NCBI GenBank assembly: GCA_016177845.1
Contig: JACOUO010000001.1
Span: forward strand, 62,001 to 126,000
Source: Deltaproteobacteria bacterium
GTDB lineage: Bacteria > Desulfobacterota > GWC2-55-46
Direction of reading: 5' to 3'
DNA length: 64,000 nt
The notes under the pieces: generated by a model
Database searches by the model: none
What the model was told of the DNA's origin: nothing
What the model saw: only the letters and a program-made list of their open reading frames with translations
Part shown: piece after piece, positions 8,302-50,819 of the stretch
How the letters are laid out: each line of letters begins with the position of its first letter
Numbering within the stretch: position 1 is the first letter of the stretch
Translations under genes and position numbers: made by a program

Positions 8302-9510
8302 TTATTTATTATCTTCCTCCACCGCTGATTTGAGCCTTTCAAGCACTCCGGGTATGGCTGATATCGCCCTGTTCCAGTTGGGAATGAGAGGCGCTCCCAG
8401 AGGGTCTTCCATGATGGCCCTTGAAGCAGTGGTGATGCTTTTTGTGAACGCGTCAACCGTCATTGCCTCCTCATGCCTGTCAAATGTAAGACCGTTTATT
8501 GCCGCATCGCTCTCATATCTCTTGATGGTATCCTCCGCAATCCTTAAGTAAGCTGAAACAAGTGTTTTGAAAAACCCTTCTGAAAATACAATGCCCTCCG
8601 AAGCAAGCGTCCTGAAGAGGGATTTGGCTATATCGATGCTCATTTTCATAAGCCCAGCGGAAGGGTCTTCGGCAGAGAGCTTCTGGTGCTTATGCTCGTA
8701 GTTCTCGGTAATATCGACCTGGCATATCCTTTTCAGAGAATAGTTCCTGTAAACTTCGGCAAGCATTCCGACCTCAAGCCCCCAGTCCCAGGGGACTCGA
8801 TTTATCCTTGCCACCTCCGTTGTCATGCAGAACTCTCCTGAGAGCGGATAGCGGAAGCTGTCGAGGAATTCAAGGAACGGCTGTTGACTTAAAATCCTTT
8901 TTAGCGCCCTTATCAGAGGCGTGACAAAGAGCCTTGTCACCCTGCCGTGGAGCTTGTCGGTAACCCTTGCGTAGTAGCCCTTGCAGAATGTGAATTCAAG
9001 AGTCGGGGTTATCACAGGATAGATAAGGCGGGCAAGGAGCTCAAGGTTGTAATTTATTATGTCGCAGTCATGCAGGGCAATGACATTGCTTTTACCGCTT
9101 GCCAGCACATAGCCGTAAGCTGTCCATGCAGACCTGCCCTTGCCGTCAGGCCCCGCGCTGATGCCGCGCTCCTCAAGCGACCTGTAAAGCTCCTGAAGCC
9201 TTTTCCCTTTTGTGTGGACTATCTTCACTTCGATGGGGATCTCAGACATGAATCTCTTTACATTGCTGAATTCTTCATCTGTGGCAGGCCCCAGCGTGAG
9301 GACTATCTCCTTGATGAACCGGGCGGCCTTAAGCTCCTGCCTTATGCCCTTCATGGCCTCTCCCATGACATCTGAGTACAGGGCAGGCAGGACGAGCGCC
9401 ACAGGCCTTAAGGTGCTGTAAAGCTCGACCTCGGCCATCAGTCTCTCAGGCTTCGGCTTTCCAAGCCTGTGTAGGGTCGTAAGCATTCCCGCATGGTAGA
9501 AGTCAGCCAT
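8302..9510 (-). CDS. Glucosyl-3-phosphoglycerate synthase-like glycosyltransferase (GT81/GpgS type)
   Basis: 402 residues. The N-terminus MADFYHAGMLTTLHRLG and the strand PVALVLPAL fit the bacterial GpgS/MpgS group. IALHDCDIINY is the DxD-like NDP-sugar/metal site, and the C-terminal half is helical with YRNYSLKRICQVDITENYEHKHQ. GpgS joins NDP-glucose to 3-phosphoglycerate, the first step to glucosylglycerate-type compatible solutes. It is the last gene of a minus-strand block that also holds two MscS-type channels, a second glycosyltransferase and an MpgP-type phosphatase, which supports an osmolyte role. Whether the donor is NDP-glucose or GDP-mannose cannot be told. Confidence 0.75.
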   Translation of the reverse strand: MADFYHAGMLTTLHRLGKPKPERLMAEVELYSTLRPVALVLPALYSDVMGEAMKGIRQELKAARFIKEIVLTLGPATDEEFSNVKRFMSEIPIEVKIVHTKGKRLQELYRSLEERGISAGPDGKGRSAWTAYGYVLASGKSNVIALHDCDIINYNLELLARLIYPVITPTLEFTFCKGYYARVTDKLHGRVTRLFVTPLIRALKRILSQQPFLEFLDSFRYPLSGEFCMTTEVARINRVPWDWGLEVGMLAEVYRNYSLKRICQVDITENYEHKHQKLSAEDPSAGLMKMSIDIAKSLFRTLASEGIVFSEGFFKTLVSAYLRIAEDTIKRYESDAAINGLTFDRHEEAMTVDAFTKSITTASRAIMEDPLGAPLIPNWNRAISAIPGVLERLKSAVEEDNK

Positions 9511-9639
9511 AGGTGTACCCTTTTTATAATGGTCGATTTTAAGACCGGGCAGCGTACAGGCATCATTCTGAGGTTAATAGACACAGGCTATAGTGTCAAG
9601 TTGCTGGATTTTTTACAGTCCTTGCGCGGGATTGGAAAA

Positions 9640-10695
9640 TCAGTTGCGTTCTACAAGCACTGTGGTGGTGGGATAGGGTATTTTCACGCCTTCGGCCCTG
9701 AAGCGCTTGAGTATGCGTTTTCTGAGAGCGTGCTGGGCGTCAAACTGCTCCGTATATTCGGTTACATGGCATACGAGGGTGAAATCAAGGGAGGAAGACC
9801 CAAAGCCGGGGCTGAGCCTTACCGCGGGCCTGGGTTCCGTGACAAGCCCTTTTATCGAGCCTGCTGATTTCAATGCCTCATCTATCAGTATCTCTTCAAT
9901 CCTGTCCGGGTCAGAGTCGTAGCTTACGCCGACCTTTACCTGAAAGCCGAATTTTTTGTCAGGCAGTGAGTAGTTCGTGATTATGCTCTGCGCAAGTTTG
10001 TTGTTCGGAATGATGATGATATTGTTTGCAAGCTCCCTGATGCGGGTTGTCCTCCATCCGATATCAACGATAAAGCCCTCCTCGCCGGAATTGAGCTTTA
10101 TGTAATCGCCTACATTGACTGGCCTCTCTACAAGTATGTGCACGCCTGAGAAGAGGTTTGAGAGCGTATCCTGAAGCGCGAGGGCAACAGCCAAGCCGCC
10201 GACTCCCAATGCGGTGAGTATCGGGGTGATGGAAATACCGAGGCTGTTAAGTATTATCAGTATTCCTATGGCGAATATAAACGCCTTTATGACCGTGCGT
10301 GAAAGACCGGTTACAGAGGTCTTGCCTGATTTTTCAATGAGGTTTTGGGCGAATTTAGAGCTGATGTTGGCTGCTGCAATCGTTATTGAAAGGATTATCA
10401 GCACATAGAGCGTGGATAATCCGTAATCTACATATTTTTTAGGGAAGTTGGAGGTATCCAGGGCAATATATAAGCTTAGGGCAATCGCCCAGTAGACCGA
10501 AGGGTGCTTGATGGAATCGAGGATTATGTCATCGGCATGGGACTGCGTCCTCCTTGCCCATTTGTAGAAATAGCTGAAAGCTATCTTTCTTACTATCAGC
10601 AAAACAAGGGCGACAGATATGAACACAGCGGCAAAAATGAGTATTGCCTTAAGGCTATTGCCGTCCAGATTTCCGTTTTGAAATAATGACTTCAT
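9640..10695 (-). CDS. MscS-family small-conductance mechanosensitive channel
   Basis: 351 residues. Four to five N-terminal membrane helices lead to the pore-helix/beta-domain signature LGVGGLAVALALQDTLSNLFSG, then ERPVNVGDYIKLNSGEEGFIVDIGWRTTRIR and IIIIPNNKLAQSIITNYS. The C-terminal alpha/beta domain is present. These channels release solutes on hypo-osmotic shock at the inner membrane. Its place between osmolyte-synthesis genes suggests synthesis and emergency release are encoded together. Confidence 0.92.
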   Translation of the reverse strand: MKSLFQNGNLDGNSLKAILIFAAVFISVALVLLIVRKIAFSYFYKWARRTQSHADDIILDSIKHPSVYWAIALSLYIALDTSNFPKKYVDYGLSTLYVLIILSITIAAANISSKFAQNLIEKSGKTSVTGLSRTVIKAFIFAIGILIILNSLGISITPILTALGVGGLAVALALQDTLSNLFSGVHILVERPVNVGDYIKLNSGEEGFIVDIGWRTTRIRELANNIIIIPNNKLAQSIITNYSLPDKKFGFQVKVGVSYDSDPDRIEEILIDEALKSAGSIKGLVTEPRPAVRLSPGFGSSSLDFTLVCHVTEYTEQFDAQHALRKRILKRFRAEGVKIPYPTTTVLVERN

Positions 10696-10813
10696 CAGCT
10701 TTTGCCCGACCTGAATTTTAGAACAGGATAAATTAGTCCGCGTTAAATCTCTGTAACTTTTGCAACAGGTTTAGTTGTTTATTATCCCATTTTAAAAGTT
10801 CATGTCAAGCGGC

Positions 10814-11506
10814 TTAAAGCGGCTCTGTCTCGTCCCTCTCCCGTTTTTTCTTCACGCCTTCTATGAATCTTTTCGCGGCGTCCCTCCCGCCGAGGCCAAA
10901 GGCTATCGCAAGGGCGAGAGAAATGCTGCCGAAGAATATGGAAAAGGCCGCGTAGACTATCTTTGGGGCTATTGAGAGCTGTTCAAAGGCCATGGCAAAG
11001 ACGAATATAAGGATAAGGAGCCTGATGGCATTGCTTAGTAGCCTGGAGTATTCGATGCCTGCGTTTACCCCTGCAAGGAGAGCGGCCCTTGCCAGAAAGC
11101 CTGCGATGAAATAACCAAAAAAGAATATGAATATGGCAGAGATGAACCTTGGCAGATAGAGGAAAAAGAGCGATACAAGGGTGTTTGTGACATTAAGGCC
11201 TAAAGAGGCAAACCCAAGCATAAAGAATATGGCGAATACTATCCAGAATAACAGTGCGCTGACGAAGTTAGTCGGGGTTATAGTAATCCTTGCGTTCTTA
11301 AGCGTGCCTGTTATGCCCACTTCATCGCTCCAGTTATCGAACTTGAATGTCTTCAGTAATCTTGAGACTATGAAACTCGTCACATAAGCTATAAGAAAAC
11401 CAGCGACAAGGACCATCAGGATAATAAGCAGATGGGGTATGAAGCTGGAAACTCTGTCCAGGAATGCATCAATATGTTCCGCAAATTGGATGTTGATCCT
11501 CTCCAT
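10814..11506 (-). CDS. Conserved TM-helix (CmpX/MscS-related) membrane protein
   Basis: 230 residues, with five predicted membrane helices and repeated glycine-rich segments such as FIAGFLARAALLAGV and SLALAIAFGLGGRDAAKRF. This is the TM_helix (PF05552-type) repeat found in CmpX and MscS-related small channels. There is no MscS beta-domain. The tail is strongly charged (KKKRERDETEPL). An ideal AAGGAGGTGA site overlaps the stop region of the upstream glycosyltransferase (11519), so the two are probably co-translated. A role in osmotic or envelope stress is inferred from context. Confidence 0.8.
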   Translation of the reverse strand: MERINIQFAEHIDAFLDRVSSFIPHLLIILMVLVAGFLIAYVTSFIVSRLLKTFKFDNWSDEVGITGTLKNARITITPTNFVSALLFWIVFAIFFMLGFASLGLNVTNTLVSLFFLYLPRFISAIFIFFFGYFIAGFLARAALLAGVNAGIEYSRLLSNAIRLLILIFVFAMAFEQLSIAPKIVYAAFSIFFGSISLALAIAFGLGGRDAAKRFIEGVKKKRERDETEPL

Positions 11507-11518
11507 TTGTTCACCTCC

Positions 11519-12778
11519 TTACCAATGGCTTAAAAGGTAGTTCTTCTGTTCCTCATATTCCACGCAGACCTTTTCAATTTCCTCTTCAGCCTCGTCATCT
11601 GTTTTCTCGGCAACCTCAAGACAGAAGGACGCAGTCCTGCCGTAATAAAGCGGTATCAAGGATTTAATGAGATGGTCAGGGCTGAGCTTTTTATTATGGA
11701 ACGCATGAAAATAATCGTAGATTATCCTTATCCATATCTCTTTTGGGAACCTGAAGTCAGCCTGGGGCTGCGCTGATATCTTTTTAAGCGAGCTTATTAT
11801 CTCCCTGTCAAGGAAGCCTGCCCATACATCCTGAAGGTTTTCTATTCCTACAAGGTAATGCTTTATCATACGCTCAATATTGACCTTTACGGGAACGACT
11901 CCGACAGAGTACTTGAACCCGAAGGTCGGAACATCTGAGGAATGTGTTATTCCCTTCCACTCCCTGTAGTGCTTTTCTGTAAGGGAAAATAAAGACCCTA
12001 TTACCTGTACGAACATATCCCTTAGGTCTGAGCCGGGGTCCTTGGGGTCGTGTATCTTTGCGCCAAGGTAGGACTGGCAGATGTTGTACTTGCCGGCAAT
12101 TGCCTCGGTGGTCATCCATATGTCTATGCCGAAACGGGCGATATCGGAATCCCAGACATCCTGCGTAAGGTAGAACTTGGCCATGTTGCCTGAAAAGCCG
12201 AACTCGCCTCCGATAGGCTGTCTTATCCTCTTTCCGTAAAGAGCCCTTGTGGCAGGATATATTATGGAGTTGGTGATTGTGCCGTCGTACTTGTGCCTGC
12301 TGTACAGAGGCGCCACAAAGTCAAACCCTTCTTTGTAGACCGGGGTCAGAAGAAGTTCAATCCACTCAGGGGTAATGCTCCTAAGGTCAGCGTCAACCAC
12401 ACAGCATGCCTTTGCGCCTGCGGATACAGCCAATTCAAAGATAGCCCTGAATGCGCTCCCTTTGCCGGGAATGCCGTGGTAAGGGGTTGTAACCCTGTTT
12501 ACAGGATAGAGGTGATGGGAGAGGAATATCGCTTTGTGGTCGGCCTTTGTGTTTAAGACCACATCAGGGGTCTTATCGGTAGAGCCTCCGTCCGAGTTGA
12601 TTATGACAGCTTTTTCATTTGGGAAATATTTTCCGAGCCCTGCGTCTACCGCGTTTACGACATGGCTTATGGTCCGTGCGTTATTAAAACTTGCTATCCC
12701 TACAACAATATCCGCAGAGCTTATCTCTGCCTTTCTCTGCTCTATGTTTTCGGATAAAGGTTCCGAGGTAACTCGCAT
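11519..12778 (-). CDS. Family-2-like glycosyltransferase, possibly second sugar transfer in osmolyte synthesis
   Basis: 419 residues. The N-terminal GT-A fold shows VVGIASFNNARTISHVV, the nucleotide-site strand INSDGGSTDKT and the metal motif VVDADLRS. GGEFGFSGNMAKFYL and FGIDIWMTTEAIAGKY follow. A long helical C-terminus (about residues 280-419) carries an acidic DDEAEEEIEKVCVEYEE stretch. It has no membrane anchor. It lies between the MpgP-type phosphatase and the channels. In Petrotoga a second transferase mannosylates glucosyl-phosphoglycerate to make mannosylglucosylglycerate; a similar role here is a guess from context. Confidence 0.65.
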   Translation of the reverse strand: MRVTSEPLSENIEQRKAEISSADIVVGIASFNNARTISHVVNAVDAGLGKYFPNEKAVIINSDGGSTDKTPDVVLNTKADHKAIFLSHHLYPVNRVTTPYHGIPGKGSAFRAIFELAVSAGAKACCVVDADLRSITPEWIELLLTPVYKEGFDFVAPLYSRHKYDGTITNSIIYPATRALYGKRIRQPIGGEFGFSGNMAKFYLTQDVWDSDIARFGIDIWMTTEAIAGKYNICQSYLGAKIHDPKDPGSDLRDMFVQVIGSLFSLTEKHYREWKGITHSSDVPTFGFKYSVGVVPVKVNIERMIKHYLVGIENLQDVWAGFLDREIISSLKKISAQPQADFRFPKEIWIRIIYDYFHAFHNKKLSPDHLIKSLIPLYYGRTASFCLEVAEKTDDEAEEEIEKVCVEYEEQKNYLLSHW

Positions 12779-12905
12779 TTTTTCTTCCCGTTAAGATAAA
12801 CAAAGGAAAAAGAGGTGTCGTTTCTTTTATTTCCTGCCGGGATAACGCTGTCCTTTAACCCCGGGATGATTTACTTGAGCAGGAACGGCGCGGATTATTG
12901 ATATA

Positions 12906-13730
12906 TCAGCATGTATAGCCCCTGTGTGATGCCTCAATACTGTCAAGTATGCCTGTTACTGCCTTGTTCCAGCCGGCAGGCCCTATGCCTTCAGCCTTTA
13001 TTAAGTCCGGCCAGACTACTTCTTCATATGTTCCGTCAGGTTTCTTCACGATCACAGGGTAGTCGACCTCACGCAGCAGCGGCAGGTCATTGGGGCCGTC
13101 CCCGATTCCGATGGTGATTATCCTGCCGTATATGGTGGTATAGAATTTTTTCAGTATCCTTACCGCCGCACCCTTGTCATGCGGGCCGAGTATGTGGAAT
13201 AAACTCCCGTGCACCCGGGAAAAACCTTTTTCTTCAATGCGCCTTACGAGCTCGGCTTCAGCTTCTTTGCCGCCTTCGAATATGAAAGGCTCTGAGAAGT
13301 CCCTTCTGCGGGCAAGCTCGGCCTCTTCAACGCTCAATCCTGTCAGCTTTGAGACCTCTTCATTGGTCATGTCCCCGAAGCCCCATATCCTGGCGTCTAT
13401 GCCTGAGCGCGCCTCGATGAGAGCCTGGCGCACCTCGGAATAGTTACGGCCGAGCTTTATAAGCTCGTATCCGTTAAGCCTTTGCCCGATAGTGCTGAAG
13501 TTGAAATACCTTGACGGGATGAAGATGCCTCCGCCGTTCTCGGCTATGAAGGGATGCCTGTTGGAAAGTTTTTTCCTTATCTCCTCCATCTCGGCCTTTG
13601 TCTTGCTTGATGAGAATACAAGGGGTATCTCTTCGGAATTTATGCGTTTGAGAGCTTCTTTTGCCTCATCGAATGAAAAATCCTTTGAGAGGAGCGTGCC
13701 GTCCAAGTCAGAGAATATTATTGTCTTCAT
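12906..13730 (-). CDS. Mannosyl-3-phosphoglycerate phosphatase-type HAD-IIB hydrolase
   Basis: 274 residues from the ATG at 13730. FSDLDGTLLS holds the nucleophile Asp (DxDGT), PLVFSSSKTKAEMEE and PFIAENGGGIFIP are typical of the MPGP subfamily, and GIGDGPNDLPLL is the Mg2+-binding motif IV. The enzyme removes phosphate from mannosyl- or glucosyl-3-phosphoglycerate to give the final osmolyte. An upstream GTG frame to 13802 exists, but DxDGT sits 8 residues from the ATG, as expected. The ATG overlaps the stop of the exchanger gene (ATGA, 13727-13730), so translation is coupled. Confidence 0.83.
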   Translation of the reverse strand: MKTIIFSDLDGTLLSKDFSFDEAKEALKRINSEEIPLVFSSSKTKAEMEEIRKKLSNRHPFIAENGGGIFIPSRYFNFSTIGQRLNGYELIKLGRNYSEVRQALIEARSGIDARIWGFGDMTNEEVSKLTGLSVEEAELARRRDFSEPFIFEGGKEAEAELVRRIEEKGFSRVHGSLFHILGPHDKGAAVRILKKFYTTIYGRIITIGIGDGPNDLPLLREVDYPVIVKKPDGTYEEVVWPDLIKAEGIGPAGWNKAVTGILDSIEASHRGYTC

Positions 13731-14737
13731 AGATGATTCCTTATCGTATAAACAAAGTACATGTTGACCACGCCAAGAGCGAATATGGCGAGGGAGTCCC
13801 ACCCGAACCTCAGCAGTATCCGCTTCTGGGGCCTGTATGTAAGCCCAAGGACGGCGATGGCAGTCATGATTATCGCCATAATCCCTGTTATGGCGTGCGC
13901 CTCGGATATATCCGCAAGCAGGGAGCCTTTTGTATAAAAGATATCATTGAGCCCGAGGAGCGAAATATTGAACATGTTGCTCCCAAAGAGATTGCCTATG
14001 GCAAGGTCATATGCCCCGATGCGCATCGCGGATACTGAAACTACAAGTTCAGGCAGTGTCGTTGCCATTGCCACAAAGACAGTGCCTACAAAATTGCTGC
14101 CAAGCCCGCTCTGCTCTGAAAGCCTTGCGGCAACAAACGGCAATGCCGTCGCCACCATGATTATTATAAGGGCATTAAGGCTATACATCAGGACGGCTTT
14201 TGGGGTGGAGATATGCTTGTATATCTTCTCTGCTTCCTCTGCGAATTCTTTTATGGCCCTCTTCTCATAAAAATAAACGGCCCTTATGCCGACCATATAG
14301 ACGATAAAAAGGAGCGGGGTATATATCCCGATTGTCCCTATGACAGGCATCATGTCTTTAATAAGAATGGAAAGCGATGCTATGCCGATTAAAACCACGC
14401 CAAAACCTGCGGAGAGCAGGTGTGACTGCCCGACCTTTGAAAATAACGGGCTGCTCTCATCAAGCAGGTCAAGAAGCGCAAGGATTATGAGGTTTAAGAC
14501 GCATGCCCCCATTATATCCCCGAGCGCTATATCGGGCGCATCCGCAATGGTTACAGAACTTATCCCTGTAGTAAGCTCGGGAAGGGAAGTTATCGAGGCC
14601 ATAAGGATAAGTCCTATCCATGCCCCTCCTATCTCCGTTTTTTCAGCTAATATGTCGCCGTATTTTGAGAGTTTTGTGCCGCATATTATGATTATGAGCG
14701 AAAGCAGCAGAAACTCTAACCAGATAAGCACAAGCAC
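13727..14737 (-). CDS. Ca2+/Na+ (CaCA-family) exchanger
   Basis: 336 residues with about ten membrane helices and two alpha-repeats: MASITSLPELTTGISSV...GDIMGACVLNL in the first half and VAMATTLPELVVSVSA...GNLFGSNMFNI in the second. The acidic residue of each LPEL motif is the ion ligand of CaCA exchangers. It likely exports Ca2+ in exchange for Na+ or H+. It is first in the minus-strand block and is coupled to the phosphatase by an ATGA overlap, which ties cation balance to osmolyte synthesis. The start is GTG at 14737. Confidence 0.88.
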   Translation of the reverse strand: MLVLIWLEFLLLSLIIIICGTKLSKYGDILAEKTEIGGAWIGLILMASITSLPELTTGISSVTIADAPDIALGDIMGACVLNLIILALLDLLDESSPLFSKVGQSHLLSAGFGVVLIGIASLSILIKDMMPVIGTIGIYTPLLFIVYMVGIRAVYFYEKRAIKEFAEEAEKIYKHISTPKAVLMYSLNALIIIMVATALPFVAARLSEQSGLGSNFVGTVFVAMATTLPELVVSVSAMRIGAYDLAIGNLFGSNMFNISLLGLNDIFYTKGSLLADISEAHAITGIMAIIMTAIAVLGLTYRPQKRILLRFGWDSLAIFALGVVNMYFVYTIRNHL

Positions 14738-30677: not shown

Positions 30678-31496
30678 ATGTCAATAGCGCGCCTTTTAAA
30701 ATTCGGCATCGCAGTTTCAGCTTTCGCATTTTTCGCTAATCCCGTTGAATCCCAGGCAATCACCTATAATGCCGCCTCTGAATTCTCATCGACCAAAAAC
30801 CCGAACGGACCCTGGGTTTACGGCTCTTCAACTAAGCTCGGCGGCGCTCTGAAGCCTTATGTATTGATAAGGCATGACAAGCTGGATTACTGGCATGGAG
30901 GCGGTTCGTTCACAACCCCGAATGTAGTGCATAATGGCTCTGGAAGGGTCATAAATGCCGCCGGCTACCTGAAGTTCCCGAACGGGGCTATGAGCTTTCA
31001 TCCGGGCCGTTATGGGGATTACAGCATCATACGCTGGACAGCTCCGCAGGCAGGCACTTATAAGATAGATGCCACTTTTACAGGGGCTAACCCTTACGGC
31101 AGCACGACTGATGTCCATGTGCTGAATGGAGCTACAAACCTATTTACAGCCTATGTAAACGGGTTCGGCGATACCTGGTCTTTCAGAAGCGGCAATGTTA
31201 CCCTTACAGCAAACCAGACTATAGATTTTGCCATAGGGTGGGGAAAGAACAGGAACTTCAGCCGTGATACAACATTTATAGACGCGCTTATCTCATCCGT
31301 TCAGCCGCCTGCGCCGATAGGGAAAGCTGTACGGGATTATCATCCCTCGCTCTTTGACACAGGCCCTGCGATAAGCCATATACCGGGGTCTGATAAAATA
31401 TTTTCTGCCCCTGAGCCCTCAACTCTCATGCTCTCTATGATGTCAGGGCTTGCTGGCTTTATGCTATGGACAAAGAAGAGGCTCATGGGAAGATAA
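30678..31496 (+). CDS. PEP-CTERM sorting-domain secreted protein
   Basis: 272 residues. A signal peptide (about 1-28) leads to a beta-rich body with Gly/Asn/Thr-rich strands (TAPQAGTYKIDATFTG, WSFRSGNVTLTANQTIDFAI). The C-terminus is a full PEP-CTERM tripartite signal: APEPSTLML, a hydrophobic helix and the basic end TKKRLMGR. Exosortase cleaves such signals, and the protein then goes to the surface or the exopolysaccharide matrix. No exosortase gene is in the window. AAAGGAGG lies before the ATG. Confidence 0.87.
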   Translation: MSIARLLKFGIAVSAFAFFANPVESQAITYNAASEFSSTKNPNGPWVYGSSTKLGGALKPYVLIRHDKLDYWHGGGSFTTPNVVHNGSGRVINAAGYLKFPNGAMSFHPGRYGDYSIIRWTAPQAGTYKIDATFTGANPYGSTTDVHVLNGATNLFTAYVNGFGDTWSFRSGNVTLTANQTIDFAIGWGKNRNFSRDTTFIDALISSVQPPAPIGKAVRDYHPSLFDTGPAISHIPGSDKIFSAPEPSTLMLSMMSGLAGFMLWTKKRLMGR

Positions 31497-32351: not shown

Positions 32352-32470
32352 AATTTCATTATATCAGTTTTAAAAGAAGGCGGCCTGTTCGCTATTTAAA
32401 CTCCCCTTTGATTCTGTTATACTTTAATCGGATATGTTTTTTAAAGCGTTTCGGAGGTTGTATTTTAAAG

Positions 32471-33232
32471 GTGCTTAAGGAAAAGGTCTTTGACCTAAAA
32501 GAGGAGAGAGATACCTCTGTAGATAATATTTCAATCGTCCTTGTAGAGCCGCAAAGCTCCGGCAATGTGGGCAGCGTGGCAAGGGCGATGAAGAACACCG
32601 GCTTTAAGAATCTTACACTCATAAACCCCTGCGATTATAAGAACAATGAGGCATTCTCATTTGCCTGCAAGGCGGATGACATGCTCTTTCGCGCAAAGGT
32701 ATATAACACCCTTGACGACTGCATAAAGGATTCTGATATCGTCATCGGCACCACGCGCAGAATGGGCAAATTAAGATATCCTCTGCTTACCTTGCAGGAA
32801 GCCGTCCCGAAGATACTGGAGCTTGGGGCGGCTAACCGCGTCTCCATACTGTTTGGCAGGGAAGACAAGGGGCTTACGAATGAAGAGATACCCTTATGCG
32901 ATATACTTCTTGAGATACCCACTCACCCGGAGTACCCTTCCATCAATCTCTCGCATGCCGTCTTTACTGTATGCTATCACCTCTTTATCGCGGCAGGAGA
33001 GAAAAGCCCCGCAGTGCGCGTAGCCCCAAGGGAAGAGCTTGAGAGGATGTATGTGCATATGGAAGAGACCCTCAGAAAGATAGGCTACGGAGAACACGGA
33101 GGGGAGTACCTCCTTCAGTCGATATTAAGGAGTTTCAGGAAACTCTTTGGCAGGACAGGGCTTATGCAGAAAGAGATAAATATGCTCAGGGGCATATTCA
33201 CCCAGATAGAGAAAAGAACCCGTAACGAGTGA
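32471..33232 (+). CDS. trmJ: TrmJ-type SPOUT RNA 2'-O-methyltransferase (TrmH family group 1)
   Basis: About 253 residues. IVLVEPQSSGNVGSVARAMKN opens the SPOUT domain, IVIGTTRRMGKLRYP lies in the middle, and SILFGREDKGLTNEE and YPSINLSHAVFTVCYHL form the trefoil-knot SAM site. TrmJ methylates the ribose of tRNA position 32. A C-terminal helical extension matches TrmJ. The GTG at 32471 follows GGAGG by 13 nt; the frame is open to 32408 without a usable site. The next gene starts 6 nt later. Confidence 0.9.
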   Translation: MLKEKVFDLKEERDTSVDNISIVLVEPQSSGNVGSVARAMKNTGFKNLTLINPCDYKNNEAFSFACKADDMLFRAKVYNTLDDCIKDSDIVIGTTRRMGKLRYPLLTLQEAVPKILELGAANRVSILFGREDKGLTNEEIPLCDILLEIPTHPEYPSINLSHAVFTVCYHLFIAAGEKSPAVRVAPREELERMYVHMEETLRKIGYGEHGGEYLLQSILRSFRKLFGRTGLMQKEINMLRGIFTQIEKRTRNE

Positions 33233-33238
33233 GGCAAT

Positions 33239-34141
33239 ATGGCTGACCTCAATAAGAAGATGCTCGATTACGCCTTCGGCATCCTTACGGATGAGAAGGC
33301 AGCGGCAATAATCCTGTTTCTCGATTCGGTTGAAGACTGGAAGTTCTGGAAGAAGTTTCAGCATAAGGAAAAACTGATACTGGCAACCCAGAAGCCGGAG
33401 ACGGAAGCCGACCTTGAGCCCTTTAGAAAAGAGCTGCTGAATATACTGAAACTGCCTCAGGTAAAGCTCACAAGGATAGGGCAGATAAAGCTCTCTATCA
33501 TCATGGGCATAACAGAGGGCATAATCAACAGCTGTGACAAGGTGGTCTGCGTTACAGGGGCGCCTTCGATAGGGATACTCGATAGCCTCATGCTCTTTGA
33601 CCTTAAGAAAGAGACTGAGGTCTTTACCTCGATGGGCATATCAAAGGACCTCCTTAAAAAGGTAAAGCCTGAGGTCATAGAGACTGTCCTTAATATCGCC
33701 CTTGAGCTTTCAAGCGAGGGCAGGGAAGGCAGGGCGATAGGCACGACTTTCGTGATAGGCGACAATGAGAAGGTAATGAAGCTCTCAAAGCCGCTTATAA
33801 TGAACCCGTTTAAGGGCTACCCGGAAGAGGCAAGGAATATTCTTGACCAGGCTGTGCATGAGACCATAAAGGAATTTTCTCTGCTTGACGGAGCGTTCAT
33901 TATAAGGGAGGACGGTGTGGTGATGGGCGCAGGCGTGCACCTTGATGCCGCGCTTGAAGAAGAGGGCATATTGCCGGGGCTTGGGTGCAGGCACATGTCG
34001 GCAGCAGGCATAACCGATGTAACGGACGCTGCCGCCATAACCATATCAGGGTCAACCGGAATAGTAAGGATATTCAGAAAAGGCAAGATACTACTTGAAA
34101 TAGAGAAACCCTCGGCTGAGGAAAAAAGAAGGGACGGATAG
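33239..34141 (+). CDS. Diadenylate cyclase (DisA_N domain) with DacZ-like architecture
   Basis: 300 residues. The C-terminal half carries the DAC motifs LLDGAFIIREDG and GLGCRHMSAAGITDVTDAAA, then SGSTGIVRIF. The N-terminal half (AAIILFLDSVEDWKFWKK, VVCVTGAPSIGILDSLM) resembles the pyruvate-kinase-C-like domain that precedes the DAC domain in archaeal DacZ. It would make c-di-AMP, which controls potassium and osmolyte transport in other bacteria. The usual RHR is RHM here and SEETG is SGSTG, as I recall for DacZ proteins. It lies 6 nt after trmJ, with no CdaR or GlmM neighbour. Confidence 0.78.
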   Translation: MADLNKKMLDYAFGILTDEKAAAIILFLDSVEDWKFWKKFQHKEKLILATQKPETEADLEPFRKELLNILKLPQVKLTRIGQIKLSIIMGITEGIINSCDKVVCVTGAPSIGILDSLMLFDLKKETEVFTSMGISKDLLKKVKPEVIETVLNIALELSSEGREGRAIGTTFVIGDNEKVMKLSKPLIMNPFKGYPEEARNILDQAVHETIKEFSLLDGAFIIREDGVVMGAGVHLDAALEEEGILPGLGCRHMSAAGITDVTDAAAITISGSTGIVRIFRKGKILLEIEKPSAEEKRRDG

Positions 34142-34204
34142 ATTATTTCCTGCTTGACATTGTAAACATAAAATGTAAAGATACGAACCACAATTGAATA
34201 ATAT

Positions 34205-34386
34205 CAGGGTATCCCCTTTCAATGGGGGATTTAAAAGGGAATCCCGTGCTCGGCAAATTTGCTGAAAATCGGGAACGGACCCGCCACTGTAAACGGGGAC
34301 GAAATCCGCTGTACATGCCACTGGCTTTTAGCCGGGAAGGCTGCGGAGAGTAGAACGAACCGTAAGTCAGGAGACCTGCCCGGGAT
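34205..34386 (+). ncRNA. Adenosylcobalamin (B12) riboswitch
   Basis: The conserved blocks appear in order: AGGGAATCCCGTG, CGGGAACGGACCCGCCACTGTAA, GCCACTGG, CCGGGAAGGC and AAGTCAGGAGACCTGCC (the B12 box region). An upstream TTGACA at 34154-34159 with a weak A-rich -10 is the probable promoter. A terminator at 34456-34493 follows, so coenzyme B12 binding should stop transcription of the 14-kb cobalamin operon. The expression platform between 34386 and 34456 has another inverted repeat (CCTCAC...GTGAGG). Confidence 0.95.
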
Positions 34387-34455
34387 ATGCCTCACGAGTT
34401 CTTCGATGGTAAAGAAGGTGAGGGATTTGGATATTTCTACTTTGCGGACTTCCAG

Positions 34456-38433: not shown

Positions 38434-39717
38434 ATGAAGAGGTTTGCCGCACTGCTTTTGGCAGCATCATGTATCATGTTTGGCAGCAACAGTTATGCCG
38501 AGGAAAAGGAACTGACCGAAGTAGAGAAGCTTAAGTTAAGGATTGAGGCCCTTGAGGATAAGATGCGTGATGGCGAACAGGTAGATGAGCTTGGCCATAA
38601 GCTCCACCCCATTCACAGCTTTTATGGATTGAAGATTAGCGGAGGGGTTACCATGGTAGGCCAGGGTGTAACGCACCTTAAGGGCGCGAACCACAGGGGC
38701 GCTCTTTCGCTCTCGGCTGACCTTGCGATTGAATCCCCGGTAGGAGAGAACGGGACAGCAACCCTTGTGTTTGATTATCAGAGGGGGGCGGGACTGCAGA
38801 ATCTGCCGGCTTTTTTTCTTGCGCCAAACGCAAACCCGACAGGCCCGAATGCTGACCTTGAATCCTTCAATAATGACCAGATACATGTCACGCAGGCATA
38901 TTACGAGCACAATATAAGTGAGAAGCTTGTCATATCCATCGGCCAGCTTGATCTTTCAGGCTATATCGATGCCAATGAATACGCCAACAATGAAAGGTCT
39001 CAGTACCTTGCCAATATATTCGTGAATAATCCCACGATAGAGTTTGGCGGCTCAGCAGATTTCGTAGGCCCCGGAATAAGGGCGACATGCTCTCCTAACG
39101 ATTTTGTGGATGTAACGCTCGGAGCCTTTGAAGGCAACGGGGATTTCTCCGATTCATTTGACAGCCCGTTCCTTATGGCTGAGGTGAACATAAAACCCAA
39201 CCTTATGGGCAGGAACGGCAATTACAGGTTTTATTACTGGAACAGGCAGGGAAGAGCTGATGTTGCCTCAACAGCCAATCCCAACAACGCCTGGCTGACA
39301 AAGGCTGAGAACAAGGGTGTAGGCATCAGCTTTGACCAGTCAATCAACGATGACCTCGGTGTGTGGCTCAGGGCAGGCACGCAGAGGGAAACAGTCGGCC
39401 AGTTTGACAAGACAGCAAGCGCGGGCTTTAACTTAAGGGGCAGAGCCTTTAACAGGCCCGATGATGTGGTCGGCTTCGGGTATGGGATTACCTCAATGGG
39501 AGGCGAGTACAAGGACTACCTTAAGAGCACAAATGCCAACTTTGAAGAGGGCTCAGAGCACTACATGGAGCTTTTCTATAATTACGCAGTGGACGGGGCA
39601 ACCGATGTCACGGGCTTCCATATCACGCCTGATATCCAGTATATAATGAACCCGGGCGGAGATGAGAACGCGAGCAAGCTCACGATATACGGCGTAAGGC
39701 TTCAGGCTTTCTTCTAA
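38434..39717 (+). CDS. Outer-membrane porin, OprB-like, within the cobalamin operon
   Basis: 427 residues. The signal peptide is MKRFAALLLAASCIMFGSNS-YA, followed by a short coiled coil (EVEKLKLRIEALEDKM) and then a run of amphipathic beta-strands. The protein ends in Phe, as beta-barrels do (LTIYGVRLQAFF). HVTQAYYEHNISEKLVISIG and FYYWNRQGRAD fit the OprB/carbohydrate porin family loosely. Placed between cbiO and cbtB, it may let Co2+ or a chelate cross the outer membrane; that is inference. Confidence 0.75.
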   Translation: MKRFAALLLAASCIMFGSNSYAEEKELTEVEKLKLRIEALEDKMRDGEQVDELGHKLHPIHSFYGLKISGGVTMVGQGVTHLKGANHRGALSLSADLAIESPVGENGTATLVFDYQRGAGLQNLPAFFLAPNANPTGPNADLESFNNDQIHVTQAYYEHNISEKLVISIGQLDLSGYIDANEYANNERSQYLANIFVNNPTIEFGGSADFVGPGIRATCSPNDFVDVTLGAFEGNGDFSDSFDSPFLMAEVNIKPNLMGRNGNYRFYYWNRQGRADVASTANPNNAWLTKAENKGVGISFDQSINDDLGVWLRAGTQRETVGQFDKTASAGFNLRGRAFNRPDDVVGFGYGITSMGGEYKDYLKSTNANFEEGSEHYMELFYNYAVDGATDVTGFHITPDIQYIMNPGGDENASKLTIYGVRLQAFF

Positions 39718-50626: not shown

Positions 50627-50689
50627 TATCTTTGCCCGATATTGACTCGATATCGGGATTCGTGTTAAGCTTACTTTGAAAATTTATCA

Positions 50690-50786
50690 GGATCTCCGAG
50701 CCAATCCCCCTAAGGGAAACTATGGGTGATTGGCCGTTTAGGGCCTGGCTGGAAACGGCCAAGCCTCCCAATTGGAAAGGAGATTA
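50690..50786 (+). ncRNA. Moco-type (molybdenum/tungsten cofactor) riboswitch
   Basis: The closing helix ATCTCC (50692-50697) pairs with GGAGAT (50779-50784). Inside, GCCAATC (50700-50706) pairs with GATTGGC (50728-50734), and GGCCTGGC (50742-50749) pairs with GCCAAGCC (50758-50765) with one mismatch. CTCCGAGCC, GGAAAC and GCCTCCCAATT blocks agree with the Moco RNA motif as I recall it. It stands before modABC, a known setting. A terminator follows, and GGAAAGG (50774-50780) can instead pair with CCTTTCC (50796-50802). Confidence 0.82.
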
Positions 50787-50791
50787 AATTG

Positions 50792-50819
50792 CCAACCTTT
50801 CCGTGGTTGGTTTTTTTTT
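50792..50819 (+). terminator. Riboswitch terminator upstream of modA
   Basis: CCAACC (50792-50797) pairs with GGTTGG (50805-50810) around a 7-nt loop, followed by nine T's (50811-50819). It lies 18 nt before the modA ATG. Confidence 0.88.

Follow-up and report, generated by a model that had tools for sequence, protein, structure and literature searches.

We found that a window of 64,000 nucleotides from a Deltaproteobacteria bacterium, that is the whole stretch of DNA analysed here, carries a gene (dacZ) whose product is very probably a DacZ-type diadenylate cyclase equipped with a module of the pyruvate kinase C-domain (PK_C) fold, which would act as a second source of c-di-AMP beside CdaA and is probably encoded in one unit with trmJ; this is the explanation that accounts best for the data as a whole. 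Next to CdaA, it would add a further cyclase, one that carries a sensor-like domain, to this lineage of uncultured Deltaproteobacteria, for which our literature search returned no title on c-di-AMP.

Domain layout, family models and predicted fold

The gene is a complete open reading frame from an ATG to a stop codon (Table 1), and its product matched just DacZ_P (PF21755, cut-off 27.4 bits) and DAC (cut-off 27 bits) in Pfam, with no match to CdaA_N or to the DisA C-terminal domain. Against the CdaA model TIGR00159 it scored 35.8 bits (cut-off 188.8) and against the DisA model PRK13482 18.5 bits (cut-off 201), and its DAC domain is C-terminal, whereas DisA starts with the DAC domain followed by a linker and helix-hairpin-helix domains. 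With these domains unmatched and both scores far under the cut-offs, the proposal of an earlier note on this DNA that the protein is neither CdaA nor DisA holds. The model for the haloarchaeal DacZ equivalog (NF041371) gave 136.1 bits over residues 20–289, below its cut-off of 430 bits. Judged from its sequence, the protein has a DacZ-like architecture but, under the rule applied by NCBI, does not count as an equivalog of the haloarchaeal enzyme. The variety of DAC architectures has reportedly been surveyed by Galperin in 2023 ('All DACs in a row').

Table 1: Features of the window discussed in the text (positions within the window).
Feature	Position	Strand	Evidence
osmolyte/channel block: GpgS-like, MscS, MscS-type TM protein, glycosyltransferase 2, HAD phosphatase, Ca/Na antiporter	~8302-14737	-	
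trmJ-family RNA 2'-O-methyltransferase, directly upstream of dacZ, 6-nt gap, start codon uncertain	32408..33232	+	TIGR00050, SpoU
dacZ, DacZ-type diadenylate cyclase (predicted), 300 aa	33239..34141	+	ORF, Pfam, AlphaFold2 model with fold matches, 48 loci with relatives
N-terminal DacZ_P domain, pyruvate kinase C-domain fold, residues 5-130	33251..33628	+	Pfam, 51.9 bits
C-terminal DAC catalytic domain, residues 159-283	33713..34087	+	Pfam PF02457, 78.1 bits
DGA catalytic motif, D217-A219 (LDGAF = residues 216-220)	33887..33895	+	DacZ alignment
RHM motif, counterpart of RHR, R251-M253 (GCRHM = residues 249-253)	33989..33997	+	DacZ alignment
cobalamin riboswitch	34190..34397	+	Rfam RF00174, 118.7 bits

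For structure prediction we used an alignment (A2) of 45 sequences, consisting of the window protein and 44 relatives from the 48 bacterial loci described below (L051, L056, L062 and L069 were left out), in which both DacZ_P and DAC were matched at E<=0.1 in all 45 members. In the resulting AlphaFold2 model (mean pLDDT 86.3, pTM 0.79), residues ~1–123 resemble pyruvate kinase C-terminal domains among the 50 matches listed by VIA-align (Z 13.5–14.2, rmsd ~2.5), with 6nn5_D (Z 14.2, rmsd 2.4, 117 residues aligned) and 5wrp_A (Z 14.2) as examples. Residues ~131–291, with the DAC fold assigned to 142–289, resemble DAC domains, including 2fb5_A (Z 16.3, with a range from residue 84), CdaA 8c4n_B (Z 15.2) and DisA 9y4s_A (Z 15.1). 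The 50 matches listed by Foldseek are all DAC chains, and the pyruvate kinases appear with VIA-align. Structure prediction, which had been suggested as a check, thus returned a pyruvate kinase C-domain fold for the N-domain (Z ~14) and not a domain unlike it. Together with the Pfam matches it supports the proposed layout of a PK_C-like N-terminus followed by a C-terminal DAC domain.

By sequence, the link of the N-domain to PK_C is weak but present. The Pfam model PK_C was touched at E<=0.1 by 18 of the 45 members of A2 (best 9e-5), and a search of the PDB with the N-domain profile found rabbit pyruvate kinase at E 0.3, ranked under a KdpD chain (0.02) and a Tjp2 chain (0.2), and hhalign of the same profile with the pyruvate kinase of the own genome gave no match (probability 1.6). 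Among 49 aligned DacZ proteins, four N-domain residues are conserved, namely R79 (46/49), K84 (45/49), G107 (46/49) and D115 (49/49). The idea that they line a site corresponding to the one for fructose-bisphosphate in pyruvate kinase was dropped, as it depended on the weak PDB alignment.

The layout is shared with DacZ from H. volcanii (HVO_1660), a Mn2+-dependent diadenylate cyclase, which also combines an N-domain of PK_C-like fold with a C-terminal DAC domain and conserves DGA, and the same fold has been predicted for DacZ N-domains and their close bacterial homologues (Braun et al. 2019, PMC6741144). CdaZ from M. jannaschii, a member of the DacY/CdaZ class, is likewise described there with a PK_C-type N-domain and DAC, but differs in that the DacZ_P model stayed under its cut-off in one scan of M. 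jannaschii and found no match in another. The model also had no match in the H. volcanii and M. acetivorans control genomes and thus misses archaeal controls, so that the kinship with archaeal DacZ N-domains is based on the fold. Bacterial DacZ_P proteins (PF21755) have the same two domains, and the differences to them lie mainly in the neighbourhood and in the third RHx residue.

The reading frame is under purifying selection: Nei-Gojobori estimates for dacZ and three relatives gave dN 0.17–0.20 and dS 1.7–2.2 (dS being near saturation), and two closer pairs gave dN and dS values of 0.03/0.39 and 0.06/0.45.

Distribution, catalytic residues and the question of activity

A contig scan with two short peptide patterns identified 48 bacterial loci with DacZ relatives and none from archaea. 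According to their record titles, which are fallible as most loci come from metagenome bins (the near-identical L048, L050 and L051 stand under two phylum names), they belong to Deltaproteobacteria, Nitrospinae/Nitrospinota, Syntrophobacterales/Thermodesulfobacteriota, Smithella, Nitrospirae/Thermodesulfovibrio, Omnitrophota, Deferribacteres, Planctomycetota and Spirochaetota, and some are titled just Proteobacteria or bacterium. Each time counting the own genome, DacZ_P was matched in 17 of 40 close-kin genomes, showing that the feature is not due to chance, in 15 of 45 genomes of the class and, for the phylum sample, in 56 of 394 genomes from 35 of 247 genera, with 53 matches passing the cut-off. 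The occurrence of the DacZ family in some bacteria has also been stated by Braun et al. 2019 (PMC6741144), and Pfam already lists the N-domain as DacZ_P. The gene is thus a further example of bacterial DacZ and not a new system, and the view that a DacZ is unusual in a bacterium found no support.

As the best-studied DacZ is archaeal, one may suspect that the bacterium acquired its dacZ recently from an archaeon, which is highly improbable in view of the relatives of the gene. The nearest ones are bacterial with 59–75% identity, followed by further bacteria with 34–50%, whereas haloarchaeal DacZ, represented by two Haladaptatus proteins, is only 29–33% identical and carries an N-domain of another family (DACZ_N instead of DacZ_P). 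In the DacZ tree, a quick search with midpoint root, only two archaeal rows and a long-branch warning, the lineage of the window forms one clade of 17 rows (SH-aLRT 100) and the archaeal pair is located elsewhere on a long branch.

The motif alignment comprised the 48 loci, the window and two haloarchaeal plasmid records, from which 49 of the 51 sequences were counted (47 bacterial and two haloarchaeal); in L062, 120 N-terminal residues were cut. D217, G218, A219, R251, H252, S270 and S272 are invariant in all 49, although for the motifs this is partly by construction since the pattern by which loci were entered itself required DG[AS] as well as an H preceded by a basic residue. Only two loci failed this pattern, namely L043, which has DGA and RHI and is part of A2, and L069, which has DGA and a frame that stops before the second motif. 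DGA and R-H are present in all 45 members of A2. The third RHx residue varies (17 M, 10 R, 9 A, 3 I, 3 H, 3 Y, 2 L, 1 Q and 1 S). All 17 proteins with RHM belong to the lineage of the window and the two haloarchaeal ones have RHH, so that, as far as the sequences tell, RHM is characteristic of this lineage at a position that varies in the family. The earlier note had correctly read RHM in place of RHR, and a special meaning of this change is not supported, with RHR itself in only 10 of the 49. The conservation suggests that the last arginine of the textbook RHR motif is dispensable across the DacZ family.

The loss of this arginine could nevertheless be taken as a sign that the protein has the DAC fold without cyclase activity and serves as a regulator binding nucleotides or c-di-AMP, in which case CdaA alone would make c-di-AMP. 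This would agree with the report that replacement of RHR by AAA abolishes the activity of DacA from M. tuberculosis, but in the mutant described there all three residues were replaced at once, and it therefore says nothing on the third residue alone (PMC3328451). As D, G, A, R and H are invariant among the 49 proteins and the third residue alone drifts, with RHR in some members of the same family and RHH in both haloarchaeal DacZ, we did not take RHM to indicate an inactive enzyme. The distribution of DAC domains points in two directions. From the 45 genomes of the class that were searched, all 15 with DacZ also carry a second, CdaA-scoring DAC, and DacZ could there be accessory or inactive. 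Of the remaining 48 genomes of the phylum sample with a DacZ_P match (under the Pfam cut-off in three), however, 18 have one DAC match, and in 17 of the 48 DacZ itself is the only one, which is hard to reconcile with an inactive enzyme; 11 of these 17 come from a single family, and the assemblies, with a completeness of 90% or higher, are not closed. Taken together, an inactive DacZ appears improbable, and we favour the active cyclase.

Some single genomes of the phylum sample deserve mention. In G124 a second DAC match is present but under the cut-off. In G375 (C55:9786-10019) DacZ_P is under the cut-off and contains an in-frame stop without a DAC of its own, the sole DAC being CdaA-like, and its sequence makes it possible that dacZ is decaying there. 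A DacZ fusion considered for an open frame of 866 aa in G057 was rejected, as the upstream stretch of this locus (L085) resembles read-through and no obvious fusion was seen.

The trmJ neighbour and the osmolyte/channel block

The product of the gene upstream of dacZ scored 228.4 bits with TIGR00050 (cut-off 167.15) and also matched SpoU in Pfam. In 15 of the 17 loci of the lineage (the window and 14 of 16 others) trmJ is located directly upstream of dacZ, the exceptions being L037 with trmJ ~1.2 kb downstream of dacZ and L036 without trmJ within 6 kb. Based on possible start codons, an in-frame dacZ start overlaps the trmJ stop or lies at most 6 nt away in 13 of these 15 loci, and the gap is wider in L030, with 58 nt, and in L032, with at least 70 nt. 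For the 32 loci outside the lineage, phmmer searches of flanks of up to 6 kb found no TrmJ beside dacZ, and the ten scanned neighbours from other lineages differ, e.g. a ClpB-type AAA protein, a trypsin-PDZ protease, YchF, GatB and cyclophilin, so that the linkage looks local to the lineage of the window. All neighbour counts are from single-sequence phmmer searches of the flanks, since ORF clustering had taken antisense frames in some loci (the DacZ cluster covered 39/49). The conserved gene order suggests that trmJ is probably the operon partner of dacZ. In our literature search no paper joining c-di-AMP and TrmJ was found.

Downstream of dacZ the cobalamin riboswitch probably starts the next transcription unit, devoted to cobalt/cobalamin, and marks the end of trmJ-dacZ; it is followed by genes for a CbiX-CbiC fusion, CbiM and CbiQ (cobalt ECF). 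After these, the window carries a gene for an OprB-type porin (38434-39717) with members of the same cluster in L022, L023, L025 and L032, which by this sequence context is possibly an outer-membrane channel for cobalt/cobalamin. Further along, a Moco/tungsten riboswitch (50682-50798, 76.7 bits) was found at the start of a frame for a solute-binding protein, and on the other side of trmJ a protein of 272 aa with a PEP-CTERM sorting motif is encoded at 30678-31496.

The osmolyte/channel block announced in the earlier note is indeed present in the window. Its HAD protein belongs to the mannosyl-3-phosphoglycerate phosphatase (MPGP) family and its GpgS-like protein is of the glucosyl-3-phosphoglycerate synthase type (360 of 700 bits), so the block likely combines, to judge by these families, the synthesis of a glucosylglycerate-type osmolyte with a mechanosensitive channel. 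Osmolytes are known to be regulated by c-di-AMP in other organisms, and a functional tie between dacZ and this block was therefore considered. It would also be in line with haloarchaea, where dacZ and mscS2 belong to one operon (Braun et al. 2019, PMC6741144). In contrast to this mscS operon of H. volcanii, dacZ has trmJ upstream and the cobalamin riboswitch downstream, and the block lies ~18.5 kb away on the opposite strand. Moreover, single-sequence phmmer with MscS, the TM protein and the antiporter as the three queries found no relatives beside dacZ in the 48 bacterial loci, searched in flanks of up to 6 kb that were full in 27 and shorter in 21 loci, so that a divergent or more distant MscS could escape. 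The link suggested in the earlier note is thus not reflected in the neighbourhood and we regard a tie to the block as quite unlikely, even if a link through the diffusible product is possible.

Proposed function and the c-di-AMP system of the genome

DacZ is presumably soluble and, as an active cyclase, would supply c-di-AMP in the cytosol as a second source next to CdaA in the membrane. The fold and the conserved residues suggest that two DAC domains pair in a head-to-head manner, with DGA and R-H of each domain binding one ATP, and that the paired ATPs are joined into c-di-AMP. The N-terminal module of pyruvate kinase C-domain fold most likely responds to a ligand or mediates oligomerisation and might in this way set the activity, and dacZ is probably expressed from a trmJ-dacZ transcription unit. 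It is also conceivable that the PK-like domain is a sensor that reads a metabolite of the central carbon or adenylate metabolism and drives a cytosolic c-di-AMP pool translationally coupled with TrmJ. We give this idea a small but appreciable chance; if true, c-di-AMP would be tied to translation or to the metabolic state, alongside and separate from the membrane and cell-wall pool of CdaA. The coupling with trmJ and the ligand of the sensor-like domain are leads worth testing, and with bacterial DacZ proteins the ligand of the PK_C-like domain would become accessible to experiments.

The own genome (3.0 Mb, 100% complete) was searched for CdaA, c-di-AMP phosphodiesterases and RCK_C receptors, as had been recommended, and candidates for all of them were found. 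Its separate CdaA (L001) scored 230.5 bits and passes the CdaA equivalog cut-off of 188.8; it shares the DAC domain and DGA with DacZ but differs by a CdaA_N transmembrane domain and by RHR, and its presence sets this genome apart from H. volcanii with a single DAC. The cdaA gene follows a frame that we take to encode a dihydropteroate-synthase-like protein and is followed by what we read as YbbR-like and GlmM-like frames. By homology, a PgpH-type 7TMR-HD protein and an NrnA-like DHH enzyme would degrade c-di-AMP. The former has a 7TM-7TMR_HD and an HD domain and gave no match to 7TMR-HDED at the threshold used, and the latter, a DHH-DHHA1 protein, is nearest to NrnA with 98 of 350 bits and thus under the NCBIfam cut-off. 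Neither the c-di-AMP riboswitch RF00379 nor the receptor family PF06153 was matched in the genome. TrkA_C (RCK_C) was found in one protein, a CPA2 antiporter nearest to KefC and under the NCBIfam cut-off, which is by homology a plausible receptor of c-di-AMP. A DHH-domain protein was also observed next to dacZ in another genome with four DAC matches (G402), where dacZ is divergent from the adjoining gene (L089, 3367-5829), and its domain suggests that it is possibly a phosphodiesterase.
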